Assembly (NCBI GenBank): GCA_028873825.1 | Contig: JAPPNM010000026.1 | Span: 1 to 35,123 of the forward strand | Reading direction: 5' to 3' | DNA length: 35,123 nucleotides | Source of the DNA: Gemmatimonadota bacterium | GTDB lineage: Bacteria > Gemmatimonadota > Gemmatimonadetes > Longimicrobiales > Gaopeijiaceae | Part shown: positions 23,018 through 35,123 of the stretch, piece after piece | How positions within the stretch are numbered: position 1 is the first letter of the stretch | Layout: the number at the start of each line of letters is the position of its first letter | Program-made: the position numbers and the translations under genes | The notes under the pieces: generated by a model | Seen by the model: the letters and a program-made list of their open reading frames with translations, nothing else | What the model was told of the DNA's origin: nothing | Database searches by the model: none

Positions 23018-25622
23018 GTGACAACCAATCCCGCCTTGGCGACAGCTCCCGCGAACCTTGATCTGGGAGGTCTCTATCAGGCCGCATTCGGACGACCGAT
23101 GTCCCTCGGTTGGCAGCGCGCTCTCGTAGACGGCAGCTGGCCCGAGGTCCTGATCGCTCCGACGGGATCCGGCAAGACTGCCGGCGTGACGTTGGCATGG
23201 GCGCATCGTCGGCTCCACCGGCCCGAAGCGACTCCGCGCCGTCTCATCTGGTGCATGCCGATGCGCACGCTCGTGGACCAGGCGGCCGACGAGATTCGCG
23301 GGTGGATGGCGCGATGCGAGGCGAAGGGAGTCAACCCCGAGGGACTGATTCCGCGGCGTGAAGACGTTCATGTCGTCATGGGCGGCGCGGATTCGGGGGA
23401 TTGGCGCCTCAAACCCGAACGTCCTCTGATCCTCGTGGGAACTCAGGACATGATGCTCTCCAGGGCCTTGATGCGCGGCTACGCGTGCTCGAGGGCGGCG
23501 TGGCCCATGGAATTCGCGCTGCTGCACCGGGACGCGCAGTGGGTGTTCGACGAGGTGCAGCTGATGGGGGCGGGGCGCGCAACCTCCGCGCAGCTGGAGG
23601 CGTTTCGGCGGGGGGAGCACGAACGGGGCGTTTCGGGAAGCCGGTCGCGCGAGCCGGTTTGCAGAAGCCTCTGGATCTCGGCCACGCTCGAGCCGGAATG
23701 GCTCAAAACCGTGGATCACCCAGCTCCAACCAGGGTGCTGCGGGTAGAGCCAGCGACAGAGGATGACCCAAGGCTGCTCAAGCTCGCGCAGGCCGCGAAG
23801 CACCTGCATCGGGCTCCGGCCGCACCCGAGTCCTCCTCGGCCGCGCACGTGCGGGACTACCTCGCCCGGCTGGCCGAGTCCGTCGTTGACGCCCACCGGG
23901 CGGGTGGCATGACGCTCGTGATCGTCAACCAGGTCAAGCGCGCGCAGGAGCTGTACGCGAGCGCGGGCCGCATTCTCGCGCGTCGCGAGCGCAGGAATGC
24001 TGTTCCGAAGCTCGTGTTGCTGCATTCACGGTTCCGTGCCGCGGACCGTGAGCGTAAGATGGAATGGACTCGGGCCGACCCGGGCGAGCACGGGATCATC
24101 GTGATCTCAACTCAGGCGGTGGAGGCCGGCGTCGACATCTCCGCGGCGGTCATGGTCAGCGAGCTCGCTCCGTGGGCGTCAATGGTGCAGCGGTTCGGGC
24201 GGGCGAACAGGCGAGCCGAGGTCGATGGCGGTGCCGAGGTGCACTGGATCGACCTGCTGGGGCGCTTGGATGCCGACGACACGGCTGGAGAGAAGCAGGC
24301 CGTGGCCCTGTCGAAACCCTACGACGTCGACGATCTGCGCGAGGCCCGCGCGAAGCTCGTTGCACTTGGCGATGTGGCTCCGGTTCATCTGCCGCCACCC
24401 GGCGACATCGACCCTCCTTTGCGCGTGATCCGGCGCAAGGACCTCGACGAGCTCTTCGACACCGACTCGGACCTTACCGGGTTCGACGTCGACATCTCCG
24501 CGTACGTGCGCGACGCCGAGGACACGGATGTCCGGGTATTCTGGCGTGACCTGACGGAACCGGCCGACGATCCTCCGAAGCCCAGCGCAAACGAACTTTG
24601 CGCGGTGCCGATCGGGCAGGCGAAGAGGTGGATCCAAACGGCGACCGAGGCGTCCGGTACGGTCTTCTTCCGTCGCGATCCGCAGTGGCGCCGCCGCGAG
24701 GGAGCGGCGGAGTCCCACCCTCCGGGATGGCCTCCCCTTTCCCCGCGCGATCCGCCGTGGCCCGGACTCACGATCCTGGCCGACGTGAGGGCGGGAGGAT
24801 ACCGGGAGGATCTGGGCTTCACCGGCAACCGGAAGCACCGGCCGGCTCCAGTAGACCCCGACGCAGGGGCCGCGCGCGTGTCGGCGGCCAAGTCGGACGG
24901 CCACCGAACGCCGGAGGAGTCGGACGGATACGACGAGGACCCCGTGAGCCAAGCCGGACGGCCGGTGTCGCTCGCGGGTCATCGGCGGCACGTGGTTCGG
25001 GAGGTGCGCCATCTGGCCGGCGCGTTGCTGCTGCGCAACGAGACTCGCACCCTGCTCCTGCGCGCCGCGCGCTGGCACGATGTCGGAAAGGCGCACGAGG
25101 TCTTCCAGGACACGATGCGGCGCGGGCTGGACGGACAGGTGGTCCAGGAGAACATGCTGCTGGCCAAGACCGTGCTGAGAACACGCCACAAGCGCCGTTT
25201 CCGCCACGAGCTGGCGTCGGGACTGGCGTTTCTGGCTCACGAAGGCTGGCGGCGTGACGCGGATCTGACCGCGTACCTCATCGTCGCGCATCATGGGAAG
25301 GTGCGGATGAACCTGCGCGCGCTGCCGCGGGAGCAGGGACCGAAAGAGCCTGAGCGGGCCGGCGCCCGGTTCGCCAGGGGGGTTTGGGAAGGCGATCGCC
25401 TGCCCCCGCTCGACCTCGGAGGCGATGAACGATGGGAAGGCGGGCGCTTGACGCTGTCGGTCATGGAACTCGGCTGGGACGAGACGACGAGGGAAAGCTG
25501 GACCGAGCGGACACGGGTTTTGCTCGCGCGACTCGGACCGTTTCGGCTGGCTTGGCTGGAGACGCTGCTGCGCATCGCCGACCAGAGGGCGTCCGCGAAG
25601 GAGAGCGCGGGCCGATACGACG

Positions 25623-25630
<8 letters not shown>
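23018..25630 (+). CDS. cas3: Type I-G (I-U) Cas3 helicase-nuclease, helicase first, HD last
   Basis: The 870-residue protein has the reversed domain order of subtype I-G Cas3. The SF2 helicase comes first: Walker A APTGSGKT at about 46-53, the DEAH-box equivalent FDEVQLMG at about 177, SATLEPEW, VEAGVDIS at about 366 and QRFGRANR at about 390. An HD nuclease comes last: HRRHVVREV near 660, the HD pair in RWHDVGKAHEVFQ at about 685, and a later HHGK at about 757. In type I systems Cas3 is recruited by Cascade to unwind and degrade target DNA. All motifs look intact. It starts at GTG 23018 and overlaps the next gene by 8 bases, so the operon is translationally coupled. Confidence 0.93.
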
Positions 25631-28977: not shown

Positions 28978-30639
28978 GTGTTCGGGTTTGCCTTCCGGTT
29001 TCCGGCCGGACGATACCACGCCACGCCGTGGGGCCGAAACGTCAACGAGGCGGATGTCGCGTGGCCGCCGGAGCCGTGGCGGATCCTTCGGGCGTTGATT
29101 GCCTGCTACTGGCGCAAGGGAGACCGGGAGCGCTGGAGCGAGGACGACTTGGCGCGGCTCGTCGATGCCTTGGCCGCCGATCTTCCCGTGTTCCGTCTGC
29201 CGGAGGGTGCCATTCACGCCCATACGCGGCACTACATGCCGATCAGGAAAGGGAGGGCCGAGTCGAGAACTTTGGTCTTCGACGCCTTCCTGCATCTTCC
29301 AGACGGCGGGGAGGTCCAGGTCATCTGGCGGGGCGTGGCACTGGATGGCGATCTGCTGGAGCTTGCTGGCGATCTTGCGTCCGGAATGGGCTATCTCGGC
29401 CGGGCCGAGAGTTGGACCGAATGCCGCGTGATTCTCGAAGCCGATGGCGAGCCGAACTGCGGCCCGGCGGAGGGCGGGTTTGCGGGCGAGTCGTTCCGGC
29501 TGCTCCTGCCGCGGTCGGCCACGTCCTACCGGGCGGTGCGCGAGCGGCTAATGAGGGAGGAGGGAGACCGCATTCGGGCCGCTGCGAAGAAACCGATCAC
29601 CGAGCGCGCACTTCGGGGCCGAATCGCCAAGTCGTTTCGGGCAAAGTCCGTGGACACCCTCCCCGCCCGCTTGGTAGACGCCATCACGGTGGACACCGCC
29701 GACCTCCAGAATCGCAAGTGGAACCGCTCCCCCGCAGCCTACGAGGCTATCTACGCGCGGGATCCCGCGACCAATCCCGGTGTTGTGCCGCGTTCGCTCG
29801 GGAGGCGCAGAATCAGGAGGGCAAGCAGCGTGAAGAACCAACCGACCGTCGCGCGCTATCTCCTGGCGGGCCGACCGCGCCCTCGAATCGAAGATTCGGT
29901 GAAGATCGGCGAGGTGATGCGGGCGGCGGCGCTGTCGAAGTTCGGGTGGGCCACCGATGACGTCTCCGGGAAGCGGGTGCCACGCGCCCCGTGGCAGGTC
30001 ACCGGGCGCGACGAGCAGGGCCGCCCGCTTCGCGACCCGGCCCACTCTCACGCGTTCTGGCTCCCCGAGGATGCCGACGAAGACGGATGGATCGATCATG
30101 TGACGGTATTCGTCGCCGACGGCATGGACCACAGCGTTCGGTCAAGGCTCGACCGGATCACGCGGCTCTGGATCACCGCGAGAGCTCGTGACGAAGCTGG
30201 GGAAAAGCCGAAGATCGACGAGTGGCGCCTGGCCCTGGAGGGGTTCGGCAGCAGGGAGGACTTCGCCGGGGCTTCGCGGCTGCTGGCCACATCGCGGCGC
30301 TGGCGGAGCGTAACTCCGTTATTGGCGGCGGGCCACCTGAAGAAGGCCGGGTACGAGGGAGAGGTGCACCGGCTGCTTCGGCGGCGCGGGATTGCGACGG
30401 AGGGTGTGGCGGTCGAGGAGTTGCGTGACATCGATGTCGGTGGCACGGCACGGCGCGCGCTGAACTTCCACAGGTTCCGCTCGCGGGGGCGGGAGCGGCA
30501 GATCGACACGAGGGGGGCTTTGCTGGAGATCACGTTTCCAGAGGATGTTCGGGGACCGCTGGCTCTCGGGTACGCCAGCCATTTCGGGTTGGGAGCGTTC
30601 GGGGGTGTTGGGGACGCGAACACCACGGGAGGGCGTTGA
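28978..30639 (+). CDS. csb2: Type I-G Csb2 (fused Cas5-Cas6)
   Basis: The 553-residue protein belongs to the GSU0054/Csb2 family, which combines the Cas5 role (5' handle binding) with the Cas6 role (pre-crRNA processing) in subtype I-G. Visible signatures are the RAMP-type start MFGFAFRFPAGRYHATPWGR, then WPPEPWRILRALIACYW, HYMPIRKGR, the PVARYLL-like strand TVARYLLAGRP, and the well conserved HSHAFWLPEDADEDGWIDHV (about 360-380). The C-terminal glycine-rich loop GYASHFGLGAF is the expected RAMP motif. It begins at GTG 28978. The cas10-like gene starts 3 bases after its stop, which is operon-like spacing. Confidence 0.92.
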   Translation: MFGFAFRFPAGRYHATPWGRNVNEADVAWPPEPWRILRALIACYWRKGDRERWSEDDLARLVDALAADLPVFRLPEGAIHAHTRHYMPIRKGRAESRTLVFDAFLHLPDGGEVQVIWRGVALDGDLLELAGDLASGMGYLGRAESWTECRVILEADGEPNCGPAEGGFAGESFRLLLPRSATSYRAVRERLMREEGDRIRAAAKKPITERALRGRIAKSFRAKSVDTLPARLVDAITVDTADLQNRKWNRSPAAYEAIYARDPATNPGVVPRSLGRRRIRRASSVKNQPTVARYLLAGRPRPRIEDSVKIGEVMRAAALSKFGWATDDVSGKRVPRAPWQVTGRDEQGRPLRDPAHSHAFWLPEDADEDGWIDHVTVFVADGMDHSVRSRLDRITRLWITARARDEAGEKPKIDEWRLALEGFGSREDFAGASRLLATSRRWRSVTPLLAAGHLKKAGYEGEVHRLLRRRGIATEGVAVEELRDIDVGGTARRALNFHRFRSRGRERQIDTRGALLEITFPEDVRGPLALGYASHFGLGAFGGVGDANTTGGR

Positions 30640-30642
30640 CCG

Positions 30643-31038
30643 ATGTCACGGTGCATCGCGGAGTACGTAGCGGGTGACCTCTCCGGCATTCAGGACTACA
30701 TCCTCGGAGTTAGAACCGTCGGCAAGGCACAGGCCAAAAGACTGCGCGCGCGATCATTCCACGTTGAGATCTTCGAGTACGCGGCCTTGGCGACGGCCCG
30801 AGCCCGCCTGGGCATCACGGACGCGAGCACATCCCGCTGCACATTGGGCCGGTCACCGGATTCCCCCGCCGGGTGGAAACCCGGCCAATTTGACCAATAT
30901 GGTCACATACTGACAATGGTGTTCCTGCGGCACCGGCGCGGATGGCGTGACGGACCCCAACACCCCCTGGTGCGAATGCCCACCCGGTCGCCCAGATTCG
31001 GATTCCGCCACTGGCCACCCACCGCGACAGGAGAATGA
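30643..31038 (+). pseudogene. 5' fragment of an HD-less cas10-like gene, fused to unrelated sequence
   Basis: The first 55 residues are Cas10 text: EYVAGDLSGIQDYILGVRT followed by GKAQAKRLRARSFHVEIFEYAA. GD(I/L)SGIQ..I and K.LR.RSF.(V/L) mark the start of the Palm 1 region of Cas10, the type III polymerase that makes cyclic oligoadenylate. No HD domain precedes it. After about ARARLGITD the likeness ends. The frame continues through a hairpin and a TGACC-N5-GGTCA dyad to a stop at 31038, with no second Palm and no GGDD motif. It begins at an ATG 3 bases after the csb2 stop, so cas10 was probably an operon member before truncation. The product, if made, cannot be a polymerase. Confidence 0.6.
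30868..30905. promoter_or_regulatory. Hairpin followed by TGACC-AATAT-GGTCA operator-like dyad
   Basis: GCCGGGT-GGAA-ACCCGGC (30868-30885) is a perfect 7-base stem. It is followed at 30891-30905 by a dyad with perfect 5-base arms, in an AT-rich patch that also gives a TTGACC -35 candidate. Dyads of this form are familiar to me from promoters of Phd/YefM-type antitoxins. It lies inside the chimeric cas10 frame and may drive the small gene at 31063 and the CARF gene. Confidence 0.4.
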
Positions 31039-31062
31039 TGAAGAGCCCAAGGGAACAGTTTC

Positions 31063-31287
31063 ATGAACACGAAATCGAAGGACAGCACGGATCAGGCCTC
31101 GCGAGATGGCGGAAGGGGCGCCTCGATCACGCCTTCGACCGCCGCACTCATGCGAAGGCTCGGCCCCTCGCCCGCCCCCCGGATGCTGACGCCATCCGAG
31201 ATCGCCTTGTTGCGAGCCGACAAGCGGGAGATGCCCCAGGTGGTCGACGAAGCTCTCGCCCGCAAGGACGAAGAATCAGAGAGTTGA
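31063..31287 (+). CDS. Small protein of unknown function (74 residues)
   Basis: The first half is polar and probably disordered (NTKSKDSTDQASRDGGRG). The second half, LTPSEIALLRADKREMPQVV followed by DEALARKDEE, is charged and helix-forming. AAGGGAAC about nine bases before the ATG is a fair ribosome binding site. It lies between the cas10 fragment and the CARF gene, 46 bases before the latter and in the same orientation. I recognise no family. The gene could belong with the dyad upstream, for example as a small antitoxin-like regulator, or be a leftover of a larger type III module. Both are guesses. Confidence 0.45.
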   Translation: MNTKSKDSTDQASRDGGRGASITPSTAALMRRLGPSPAPRMLTPSEIALLRADKREMPQVVDEALARKDEESES

Positions 31288-31333
31288 GCTGCTTGAGAGA
31301 TGATTGGCTTCACTCACGATGCGGGAGCATAGC

Positions 31334-33223
31334 ATGACCCACGAAACGCCCGAACGGGAACACGTCCTCCTCACCGTGCTCGGGACCAATCCACGGAATG
31401 CGACCTACGAGCTGGGCGGCGTAACGCAGGATGCCCGCCTGGCACCCGTGGCGCTGCTGCGCCTTCTACCCGAAGTTCGCCGCCCCACGCGGGTACTCGC
31501 CCTCTGCACCGGGGAGGCGAGTCAGGAAAGCTGGCCAAGCCTCGAAGAGAACCTTCCCCAAGGCTGCGCGGCCGACCTCGTGGACCTTCCGGACGGCGAC
31601 TCGCCCGAGGATGTCGACACGTTCCTGGAGGTGGTCGCGGAGGCTGTCCCCGGCCGCGCCGGCCTGACCGTCGACGTGACCCACGGCTTCCGGCACTTCG
31701 CCTTCCTCACCTACGTCGGCGTTCTCTATCTGGCGGCCCTGCGCGACGTGACGATTCGCGGCGCATACTACGGCCTGTACCGGCGCGACCGGACAAGTCC
31801 CTTTCTCGATCTGGCCCCTTTGTTGGAACTGCCGCAATGGATCCACGCGGTCAAGGTGCTGTCCGAGACGGGCAGCACCCTGCCGATTGCGGAGGCCATC
31901 AAGGCGAGACGCGGGTCTTCGCGGCCGGAGAGTCAAGTGGTTCACAACCTGTATCGGGAACTGTCGCGCTTTTCCTCGGCCTATCTTTCCGGCCTGCCGC
32001 TGGAGCTCGGGGCGCAGACGCGGCTCATTCTCGATCAGCATCTCAAGCCGTTGCGGAAGAGGCTGGTGCAGGTGCACCGTGTCCCGCTCGCATCTCGGCT
32101 CGTGAAGGATCTCGAGCAGGCGATGACTGCCTACGATCTTCCCCCCGAATCGGCTTCCCCCAGGGGGGCCTGGAAGGGTCGCATGGGCCTTAGTGACAAC
32201 GAGCTGAGGCGACAGGCCAAGGTCGTTGACGACCTGCTGCGACACGGGAACCTCCCGGCGGCCCTGGGCCTGATGAGTGAGTGGACCGTTTCCTGGATGA
32301 CATGGCGGCGGGGGCGCATGGCCGACTGGCTGGACCATCACGGCGGCAGGCGCGAGGCGGCCAACGCTCTCAACGCCATGGCCGCCGCCGCTGACGACGC
32401 CGAGCTTCGAGCCAGCCTGCTGGACGAGCAGCCCGACCTCGGGCGGTTCTGGAAATCACTTCGCGAGCTGCGCAACGGATACGCCCACCACGGCATGAGG
32501 CGTCAGGACTTGGTCGCATCACCGGACTTGGACGCCCGTCTCGCCAAGGTGCACGAGTACTGGAATGTGCTTCGCGCCCGTCCGCAACTCACAGTCGCAC
32601 TTGACGAGGGATCAAACGCGCGCCTGCTGGTCAGCCCCATGGGACTGCCGCCAGGCGTGCTGTTCAGCGCGCTCCACGCGTGTCGCTCCGACGGCGGGTT
32701 CGGCGAGCCGACAGAGTGCATCGTCGTCTGTTCCGCCGAGACCGAGGGAGGCATCGCGGAGGCCCTCCGGGCCGCCAGATACGAGGGTGCCGCGACACCG
32801 CTGGTCCTCTCGGACCCGCACGGAGGCAGGACGGAGATCAAGCGCTTGCTGACCGGTGCGCGACGGCGGATCTTCGGAGCGAGGGAGATGCTCGTCAACG
32901 TTACGGGAGGAACGACGCTCATGGGACTTGCGGTGGAGGCGCTTGCGAACGAGGGCCGTCGGCTCGCCTGCCCCGTCCGCCGCTTCGGCCTCATCGTGGC
33001 CTTATTGTCGTGGGGGGCCGGCTCCCGCCCGGGATGTCACCTCCTCGTTGCGTCACGAATGATGTCGTGGTTGCAGTGGTTCAACATCACGAATTCGCCG
33101 CCGTCCTCTCGGCGACCAGGTGACCCGGTTCTTTCGGTCGACATATGCCTCCCACACCTCGTCGGCGGTTCCCCGTATCCGGTGGACCTTGAGCCCTGGG
33201 TGCCGGGGGTTACTCTCCAGTAG
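31334..33223 (+). CDS. CARF-HEPN-CARF protein of the Csx2/Csm6 class, C-terminus probably replaced
   Basis: The N-terminal CARF domain (about 1-190) has LLTVLGTNPRNATYELGG and the Csx2-type motif LTVDVTHGFRHFAFLTYVGV (about 112). The middle part holds a HEPN-like helical bundle with the RNase motif R-x4-H in RELRNGYAHHG (about 375-385). A second CARF-like domain follows, beginning RLLVSPMGLPPGV (about 429) and carrying LVNVTGGTTLMGLAVEALAN (about 518). CARF domains bind cyclic oligoadenylate made by Cas10, and HEPN cuts RNA. Past VRRFGLI (about 33,000) the frame runs antisense through a toxin gene until 33223, so the natural end seems lost. The ATG at 31334 has GGGAG 7 bases upstream. An earlier TTG at 31304 is less likely. 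Confidence 0.78.
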   Translation: MTHETPEREHVLLTVLGTNPRNATYELGGVTQDARLAPVALLRLLPEVRRPTRVLALCTGEASQESWPSLEENLPQGCAADLVDLPDGDSPEDVDTFLEVVAEAVPGRAGLTVDVTHGFRHFAFLTYVGVLYLAALRDVTIRGAYYGLYRRDRTSPFLDLAPLLELPQWIHAVKVLSETGSTLPIAEAIKARRGSSRPESQVVHNLYRELSRFSSAYLSGLPLELGAQTRLILDQHLKPLRKRLVQVHRVPLASRLVKDLEQAMTAYDLPPESASPRGAWKGRMGLSDNELRRQAKVVDDLLRHGNLPAALGLMSEWTVSWMTWRRGRMADWLDHHGGRREAANALNAMAAAADDAELRASLLDEQPDLGRFWKSLRELRNGYAHHGMRRQDLVASPDLDARLAKVHEYWNVLRARPQLTVALDEGSNARLLVSPMGLPPGVLFSALHACRSDGGFGEPTECIVVCSAETEGGIAEALRAARYEGAATPLVLSDPHGGRTEIKRLLTGARRRIFGAREMLVNVTGGTTLMGLAVEALANEGRRLACPVRRFGLIVALLSWGAGSRPGCHLLVASRMMSWLQWFNITNSPPSSRRPGDPVLSVDICLPHLVGGSPYPVDLEPWVPGVTLQ

Positions 33224-33328
33224 ACGCAGGCACCTGAAGATTGCCTTCTTCAGCGAGGGAGACTTCTTGCGAAGTTGCTTCTTGAACGATGGAGCGATCG
33301 TAACCCGGGGCGCTTGACCTGACCTCAC
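33037..33328 (-). pseudogene. RelE/HigB-type toxin gene with a one-base frameshift
   Basis: The frame reads VTIAPSFKKQLRKKSPSLKK through KVHRIRGTADEVWEAYVDRK and NRVTW, typical of RelE/HigB-like mRNA-cleaving toxins. Then it runs into nonsense. One base over, the sequence continues REDGGEFVMLNHCNHDII, the expected C-terminal end with its conserved His-rich tail, to a stop at 33037. The 292-base length is one more than a multiple of three, consistent with a one-base insertion near 33115. It starts at GTG 33328, overlapping the antitoxin stop as GTGA. Either the toxin is inactive or the base is a sequencing error. The CARF frame reads antisense through it. Confidence 0.7.
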
Positions 33329-33615
33329 TCCTCCTGCAGCCACCGGATGGCGTCCTCGAACGAGTCGAAACTCACGCCCTCCCCACGGCGAATCTCAGTC
33401 AGAGCTTTCTTTTCGGCACGCTGCCACGCGGCTGACCAGTAGTAGTCCTGCGACGGAATGCGGGCAACCCCGGTGGGGATGGAAGCTCGCCATCTGGGCA
33501 CCTCCATCGTTGACATCCGAAGGTTGGAACGCGGGGGCAAAAGGGCACTGAGGGTCATCTGCCCGACCACGGGGTTCTGGTAGCGTGTCGGGAGCGAGAG
33601 CGAGTGGGCCATCAT
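33325..33615 (-). CDS. Antitoxin partner of the RelE/HigB-like toxin
   Basis: The 96-residue protein has an N-terminal beta-rich part (MTLSALLPPRSNLRMSTM) and a C-terminal segment YYWSAAWQRAEKKALTEIRR with FDSFEDAIRWLQ. That tail, with a W..W...E..A..(D/E)I..G......S.E....L pattern, is typical of antitoxins that pair with ParE/RelE-like toxins and wraps the toxin. The start at ATG 33615 follows an unusually strong AGGAGGGGAGGAGG and overlaps the stop of the small upstream gene (ATGA). The stop overlaps the toxin start (GTGA). This antitoxin is the only one of the three cassette genes without a frameshift. Confidence 0.7.
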   Translation of the reverse strand: MMAHSLSLPTRYQNPVVGQMTLSALLPPRSNLRMSTMEVPRWRASIPTGVARIPSQDYYWSAAWQRAEKKALTEIRRGEGVSFDSFEDAIRWLQEE

Positions 33616-33847
33616 GCCTCCTCCCCTCCTATCTCCTTCATGGCTTCGGTCAGCGACTCGACAAGCTGGCTCGCCGTCTTGACCGTTAGGCCCACGGTGA
33701 AGACTAGTGGGGCTCCTGTTCCACCCCCTCTCGGGTAATCTGGGGCGCGCCGGCCAGAAAGTGGACAACGGCATGGTCATCGGTTACACCGACCACCATG
33801 CCGGATGCGAGGAACGGAAGGAGGCGAAAGGAAGCAGGCTCAGGCAT
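33612..33847 (-). pseudogene. Small gene heading the TA cassette (DUF3467-like pattern), frameshifted
   Basis: The first frame reads MPEPASFRLLPFLASGMVVG followed by VTDDHAVVHF. After a GGGGG run near 33735 the reading moves by one base to GAPLVFTVGLTVKTASQLVE followed by SLTEAMKEIGGEEA and a stop overlapping the antitoxin ATG. Joined, it would give about 78 residues. The ending resembles the VVMS..TAK.L...L.EAI pattern of DUF3467-type small proteins, an uncertain call. The 236-base length is one short of a multiple of three, consistent with one lost G in the run. Confidence 0.5.
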
Positions 33848-34102: not shown

Positions 34103-35012
34103 TCAGGTCGTCGCCAGCGTCCGCAGCGCTGTCCGCACGCTGGCCCCTGCGTTCGCGACGTCGAACGGCAGACAAGCGAGCCTCAAGCCGTCGAAGAACC
34201 GACAGGTGAATGGGCTGGTGAAGCCCGCGCTCCGGGGGTACGCGAGGGCCACCGTGCGACATCCGTACCTCTTGCCGTAGGCATAGAGCTGGTACACGTC
34301 GGAGGAGACGACGTCCCGGATGAGGTCCGGACCGCCCCGGCCGATGTGCTTCCACTTGGCGTCGAGGACAAACCGGACGGCGCCGGTCGCATCGCGGAGC
34401 GAGATGTCGGGCCTGATCGCGAAGAACGACCTGTCCCCCTTCAAGGCCATGTGCCGTCGAGGCCCCTGGGGGATCACCCGGAACTCGCTCTGGTGGCGCC
34501 GAAAGCTGTGGGTCAGGAAGTCCTCGAACACCTCCTCCATGGGGAAGAGCAGCGACCGGTTGACGTGCCTGCCGGACCAGGTCGCGAGCCCGCGGTTGAA
34601 GAGGAAGAGGCCGACCCACCGCATGACCGGGCCGTAGTGCGGCATGGAGCGGTCTACGCTGTGGCTCCGCCAGTCCGCGCGCTGGTCTCGCGCCGGCGGG
34701 ACAGCCGAGAACGCCGGTTTGAGATCCGTGAGCAGCCGCTTGTTGCCCTCGTTGCGCACGACGGGCTCGAGCCTCTCGAGCGCGGTGCGGATAAGCCGGT
34801 TGGCCGGGCGGTTGGGACTGAGCTCGTCGTGTTCGACGTGGAAGCGGGAGCGGTCGATCAGGTTCTCGCGCAGGTGGTCGCGAAAGACGATGCGCCCGCG
34901 CAGGAAGGGTAGGTTCTCCCGGACCGGCACGTAGCGTCGGCTGAGGCCGCCCGTCACGAGCACCCGGACGTTCTCCAGAAATGTCCGGACGAAGACTTCG
35001 AGCATGGGGAAG
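34103..35012 (-). CDS. mcrC: Second McrC-type endonuclease, N-terminus cut by the contig end
   Basis: This is the C-terminal 300 or so residues of an McrC protein different from that at 765-1847. The N-terminal part starts within LEVFVRTFLENVRVLVTGGL and runs through NLPFLRGRIVF and FHVEHDELSPNRPANRLIRTA, the well known McrC middle region. The nuclease core follows: FAIRPDISLRD, VRFVLDAKWKHI (PD...D-x-K) and SSDVYQLYAYGKRYGCR. The ATG at 35005 is internal. The real N-terminus and any mcrB partner lie beyond the poly-G tract. The stop at 34103 is separated from the TA cassette by about 260 bases. Confidence 0.85.
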
Positions 35013-35123
35013 CGTGGGCGCCCCCCCCGGGGGGGGGGGGGGGGGGGTTGGGGGCGCGGGGGGGCCCCCGGGGGCCGCCCCCGCCCCCAGCACCACAAGC
35101 CGCTCGTGTTGGGGGGGGGGGGG
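35013..35123. other. Poly-G/poly-C low-complexity contig end
   Basis: Long runs of G and C (for example more than 15 G in a row) interrupt the mcrC frame and continue to the last base. This looks like a sequencing or assembly artefact at a contig end, not biology. Features near it, including nearby single-base frameshifts, should be read with that in mind. Confidence 0.85.

Follow-up and report, generated by a model that had tools for sequence, protein, structure and literature searches.

The type I-G operon and the genes behind csb2

The window (the whole stretch of DNA analysed, 35,123 nucleotides) lies in contig C27 (48.8 kb), which belongs to a 3.3-Mb draft genome of 183 contigs. CRISPR type I-G (formerly I-U) is a DNA-cutting CRISPR system with the components Cas3-Csx17/Cas8g-Csb1/Cas7g-Csb2/Cas5-6-Cas4/1-Cas2; type III is the alarm-signalling CRISPR type. 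All four type I-G effector genes were found intact, in order and in one operon (Table 1), with csb2 starting on GTG and ending on TGA. Comparison of the csb2 tails showed that the final ~10 residues are unlike those of sister operons. The adaptation part (cas4/1-cas2 and an array of 46 repeats) is present on the same contig past the window, at 39.0–44.6 kb and across a gap of 10 N. The genome has a second type I-G locus (contig G000:C157, locus L025, 1–12746), which consists of a WYL-type regulator, cas3, csx17, csb1, csb2, cas4/1 and an array with 13 or more repeats; the repeat stem differs from that of the C27 array and the tail, CCTCATTGAAGC, is identical.

Table 1. Features of the window from cas3g to the right-hand end (window coordinates).
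Feature	Coordinates	Strand	Evidence
cas3g helicase-nuclease, 870 aa, intact	23018..25630	+	TIGR02621 E=6e-207; PDLC01770 E=3e-242
csx17/cas8g large subunit, 801 aa	25623..28028	+	TIGR04113 E=2e-173
csb1/cas7g, 322 aa	28003..28971	+	PF09617 E=4e-42; TIGR02570 E=6e-37
csb2 (Cas5-Cas6 fusion), 553 aa	28978..30639	+	TIGR02165 E=2.8e-45; Cas56g PDLC01778 E=1.4e-137
cas10 remnant, Palm-1 start, ~55 homologous residues (GDLSGIQ...KRLRARSF)	30643..30828	+	TIGR02578; PADLOC Cas10; PDB Csm1
Junction DNA with 74-aa ORF (31063-31287)	30829..31303	+	no informative match to the DNA of 154 genomes in the order; no family match
CARF-HEPN-CARF (Csx1-type) effector, 639 aa	31304..33223	+	PDLC01840 E=7e-125; TIGR02221 E=1e-17
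Two small ORFs (33053-33343, 33325-33780), read as RelE-type toxin-antitoxin pair	33053..33780	-	reading of ORFs only
mcrC	34103..35098	-	PF10117 E=3e-60

In the sister operons (C157, G030, G067 and G014b) cas4/1 begins within about 60 bases or less of csb2. The corresponding distance in C27 is ~8.4 kb and is occupied by a cas10 remnant, a gene for a CARF-HEPN-CARF protein, McrBC and PIN. When C27 was aligned with the sister operons, homology ended in the csb2 tail and set in again exactly at the start codon of cas4/1 (GTGAGCGACCGA), from which it follows that the cas10 remnant and the effector sit in an insert. The right-hand part of this insert spans the scaffold gap (contig positions 35124–35133), which starts exactly at the window end; on its far side an AAA protein read as mcrB (the apparent mcrC partner), a PIN toxin, cas4/1, cas2 and the array were found. 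Within the window (34103–35123), mcrC adjoins a poly-G/poly-C stretch and the gap. No csm2, csm3 or csm4 was found in C27 from 30 kb to the contig end.

The 475 bp of junction DNA between the cas10 remnant and the effector gave only short, weak and scattered DNA matches to possible sources and no Rfam or tRNA match, and no stable RNA structure was predicted at this position (z=-0.5). Just past the break in cas10, at 30865–30915, a GC hairpin (GCCGGGTGGAAACCCGGC) is followed by an imperfect palindrome (TGACCAATATGGTCA), which is possibly an operator left behind by an inserted element. A Pfam search with the 151-aa ORF of the putative toxin-antitoxin pair gave no match.

The effector contains both CARF and HEPN domains, and its motifs TVDVTHG, RNGYAH (HEPN) and NVTGGTT are all intact. 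Two further genomes of the order contain homologues, G092 (43% identity) and G035 (39%). In G092 (locus L050, G092:C243, 1–3452) the gene lies 78 nt behind csb2 and is followed by an array; the only cas10 found in that genome is of the Cmr2 type and is located on another contig. The homologue in G035 lies beside a Cmr2-type cas10. These two cases support the reading that the effector has more than once become associated with type I-G or type III loci. The earlier note had taken the neighbouring CARF-HEPN gene as a sign that type III signalling was linked to this operon; the position in G092 supports that link, but no cas10 lies between csb2 and the effector there. Since no intact cyclase was found in the window genome, its effector is probably orphaned.

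A truncated cas10 three bases after csb2

The ORF behind csb2 has its ATG at 30643, 3 bases past the csb2 stop, and runs for 131 codons to 31038. It had been read as the Palm-1 start of a Cas10 cut to about 55 residues, and the assignment, the spacing and the length are confirmed. Residues 9–61 match positions 232–282 of the 753 in the Cas10/Csm1 model (TIGR02578, E=1.1e-9), the PADLOC Cas10 profile recognises the fragment with E=7e-9, and solved Csm1 structures in the PDB align to it with one two-residue gap (E=2e-5). The Palm-1 start signature GDxSGIQ...LRARSF is present. Because the fragment is the only TIGR02578 match in the whole genome and the Cmr2 model has no match there, the similarity is not that of a chance motif.

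No Cas10 homology was detected past about residue 62 in any frame of 30800–31320. The ORF reads on for ~70 residues in non-homologous sequence, with a drop in G+C at third codon positions from 0.77 to 0.67, and ends before the point where the Palm-2 GGDD cyclase motif would stand. A merely frameshifted gene was rejected, as no later Cas10 motif occurs in any of these frames; the gene is thus truncated, and the loss of homology after about 55 residues makes it a pseudogene. The lack of an HD domain, also claimed earlier, is true of the window ORF but not demonstrable for the ancestral gene.

The origin of the fragment was assessed with Palm-1 models of two groups of Cas10. The model of the HD-less clade linked to type I-G (described below) gave 44.4 bits and that of ordinary III-A Cas10s 42.6 bits, compared with 82–123 bits for clade members in leave-one-out scoring. 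The lead-in of the fragment, 'VAGDLSGIQ', is similar to the 'VAGD' surroundings seen in HD-bearing Cas10s. No closer relatives were found within the phylum and none in viral contigs. Two Planctomycetota genomes, G713 (L132:8571–8741) and G751 (L133:8970–9140), each hold a solitary 52-residue Palm-1 remnant, distant from any CRISPR gene, whose break falls at almost the same residue as that of the window fragment.

Type I-G operons joined to a Csm module

Profile searches for csb2 and cas10 covered 154 genomes of the order. Of these, 22 have csb2 and six have any cas10 or remnant (the Csm1 model detected five, the Cmr2 model G092); each of the six also bears csb2 (hypergeometric P about 4e-6, kinship not corrected). 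The earlier note had proposed a look for relatives in which csb2 is directly followed by a full-length cas10 with a GGDD motif. Such an arrangement exists in G087, a Gemmatimonadota MAG (GenBank JACQVF010000097) with the order cas3-csx17-csb1-csb2-cas10-csm2-csm3-csm4-CARF/HEPN, where the ATG of cas10 overlaps the csb2 stop. The G087 Cas10 (540 aa) is HD-less, starts at Palm 1 and has the GGDD motif; together with Csm2, Csm3 and Csm4 it scores above the NCBIfam cut-offs for the III-A families. An AlphaFold model of this Cas10, built from 4 sequences, is weak (pLDDT 59.5), has Palm-1 secondary structure from residue 2 and gave Csm1 chains as top Foldseek matches. Searches for relatives found none in phages and, in plasmids, only distant III-A-type Cas10s (<35% identity). 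A Micrarchaeota match (L046) was rejected as a relative, being an ordinary HD-bearing Cas10.

The same order is found in the Planctomycetota genome G491 (cas3-csx17-csb1-csb2-cas10-csm2-csm3-csm4), with 144 nt between csb2 and a cas10 that is frameshifted in the assembly. In two further genomes the module lies downstream of csb2 on its contig, separated from it by one to two genes: Gemmatimonadota G145 has csb2, an MNT/HEPN-like pair and then cas10-csm2-csm3, and Planctomycetota G429 (L045) reads Cas3g-Cas8g-Cas7g-Csb2-Cas4/1-Cas10-Csm2-Csm3-Csm4-CARF, followed by repeats that end CCTCATTGAAGC, as in the type I-G arrays of the window genome. The module of G041 is on a separate short contig, which has no end overlap with the csb2 contig and is not joinable to it. 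GGDD is present in all five Cas10s. The III-A genes cas10, csm2, csm3 and csm4 are all present in G087 and G429, where csm4 is followed by the CARF gene and the gene lists contain no cas6. In G087, G041 and G429, read on the 3' side as far as the CARF gene, csm5 and cas6 were both absent next to the module, and no crRNA-processing enzyme other than Csb2 was seen at these loci. The intact examples, where named, are MAGs, and those with estimates show 1–6% contamination.

Genes of the MNT nucleotidyltransferase/HEPN toxin-antitoxin type occur at two of these loci, between csb2 and cas10 in G145 (L028:3342–4269) and just behind the CARF gene in G087 (L026:14591–15322; HEPN PF05168 E=2e-19).

On the Cas10 tree the five HD-less proteins group in a single clade (support 100/100), apart from 19 other Cas10s, in which Palm 1, where located, mostly begins 180–275 residues in. 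Their csb2 partners do not form one clade, and the csb2 tree requires at least three changes of the following gene. One clade of Cas10 with scattered csb2 partners suggests repeated capture; the simplest reading of these trees is that one Cas10-Csm lineage became specialised for I-G operons and was captured more than once. As G087, G491, G145 and G429 carry both parts, the hybrid of types I-G and III that had been proposed for the window is real in these relatives. In the window it is unproven, given the near-equal bit scores of the fragment and a csb2 from a clade in which cas4/1 comes next (see below), and is plausible for the broken copy.

Origin of the remnant and relation to known systems

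The explanation that we find probable is that the window ORF is a truncated cas10 pseudogene, the remains of a cassette for type III signalling that entered, with the effector, between csb2 and cas4/1. Points against it are the failure to find csm2, csm3 or csm4 in C27 from 30 kb onwards, the scaffold gap in the right-hand part of the insert and the scores that leave the fragment outside the HD-less clade. On the csb2 tree the window gene falls in the csb2-cas4/1 clade, which argues that cas10 arrived by a separate insertion and that the 3-base spacing could be a product of the junction. The same tree position would also suit a different history, unlikely yet serious, in which the fragment stems from the middle of an ordinary III-A cas10 that lost its HD-coding part in a rearrangement which joined the rest to the csb2 tail; the spacing of the ATG would then be coincidental, and the two systems would be neighbours in a defence island and never one operon. 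This history has to be taken seriously because the fragment is not placed in the HD-less clade and has a lead-in like that of HD-bearing proteins. In addition, the deviating end of Csb2 looks as though it reads into foreign DNA, and the same insert carries McrBC, PIN and other cargo. However, the fragment lies behind csb2 and starts at Palm 1, in the position where the intact csb2-cas10 junctions of G087 and G491 are found, cas10 in this order is confined to I-G genomes, and a homologous CARF-HEPN-CARF gene stands behind csb2 in G092.

A wrong joining of a type I-G contig to a type III contig would be conceivable in a draft of 183 contigs with a poly-G stretch and a gap at 35124, but we regard it as very unlikely, for the csb2-cas10 junction is 4.5 kb away from the gap, the same type of junction occurs in the independent assemblies of G087 and G491, and the contig goes on into a matching I-G cas4/1-cas2-array. 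It is extremely unlikely that the short ORF is not debris but encodes a small working protein, for instance a regulator or a Palm-1 peptide. The solitary remnants of G713 and G751, with their near-identical break, would fit such a role, but 3 synonymous and 3 non-synonymous changes separate them, the GD(I/N)SG motif included, so that they show no sign of constraint; a conserved small protein is not supported. The 70 non-homologous residues of the window ORF and its drop in third-position G+C likewise speak against function.

If the window did receive a cassette, it would have brought type III signalling genes, the CARF-HEPN-CARF ribonuclease effector and other defence genes into the type I-G operon. 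The intact relatives, with a compact HD-less Cas10-Csm2-Csm3-Csm4 module joined onto the operon end, suggest how such a system would work. I-G repeat transcripts would be cut by Csb2 and the crRNAs loaded into both the I-G Cascade and the mini-Csm complex. Cascade would bring Cas3 to DNA; binding of phage RNA by mini-Csm would lead Cas10 Palm 2 (GGDD) to make cyclic oligoadenylate, which would switch on the CARF-HEPN RNase. This crosstalk is deduced from gene content. In the window copy the signal maker would be dead and the effector orphaned, with the I-G part apparently intact, and the broken cas10 with its orphan effector illustrates a possible course of decay for such a system. We give an even chance to the wider proposal that a dedicated HD-less Cas10-Csm2-Csm3-Csm4 lineage evolved to plug into I-G operons, came to lie behind csb2 by several captures across two phyla and uses Csb2-made crRNAs. 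If true, DNA cutting by Cas3 and a second-messenger alarm set off by RNA would both depend on a single array and a single transcript. Type III systems are known to take Cas6 from loci nearby; an effector lineage of type III that keeps to a single type I subtype, and once overlaps the crRNA-processing gene of that subtype, would amount to natural two-tier immunity with one memory, and crRNA sharing between DNA-targeting and signalling complexes becomes directly testable in one operon.

Gemmatimonadota have been described in the 2025 classification as without detectable CRISPR-cas loci (PMC12669027), and the present results add such loci to the phylum; the same study states that Cas6 is supplied in trans for most type III loci. 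HD-less, cyclase-positive Cas10s are common, and hybrid loci with a type III part are recognised as a category in annotation (PMC11229360). Hybrids have been noted in myxobacteria, the I-G/III-A pair not being named in the available part of that source (PMC11237760). Our literature search, whose reach excluded most subscription journals, found no description of an I-G/III-A operon, and a combined I-G and type III immune system in two phyla appears to be little known.

The C27 locus resembles type I-G down to its array, the repeats of which have the tail TTGAAGC that PMC11237760 gives for I-G repeats; unlike usual type I-G loci, it has a type III fragment, a CARF effector and defence genes separating csb2 from cas4/1. 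The window effector matches the CARF_HEPN_CARF class of PADLOC (CARF2), with motifs intact as in Csx1-type CARF-HEPN(-CARF) effectors, but unlike the usual members it stands in a genome in which no intact Cas10 was found. With type III-A (Csm) the modules share Cas10 and Csm2–4 above the III-A cut-offs in G087 and Csm1 structures as best Foldseek matches. They differ from III-A in having no adjacent csm5 or cas6, an HD-less Cas10, no adaptation genes of their own and a position appended to I-G operons; in the window, about 55 cas10 codons are left. Co-located type I and type III loci are exemplified by I-F with III-B in Marinomonas (PMC5576922), and the arrangement is alike in that a type III effector lies beside a type I system and probably uses its crRNAs. 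In contrast to that co-location, the Cas10s described here belong to one clade, of which all placeable members are at I-G loci and one overlaps csb2.
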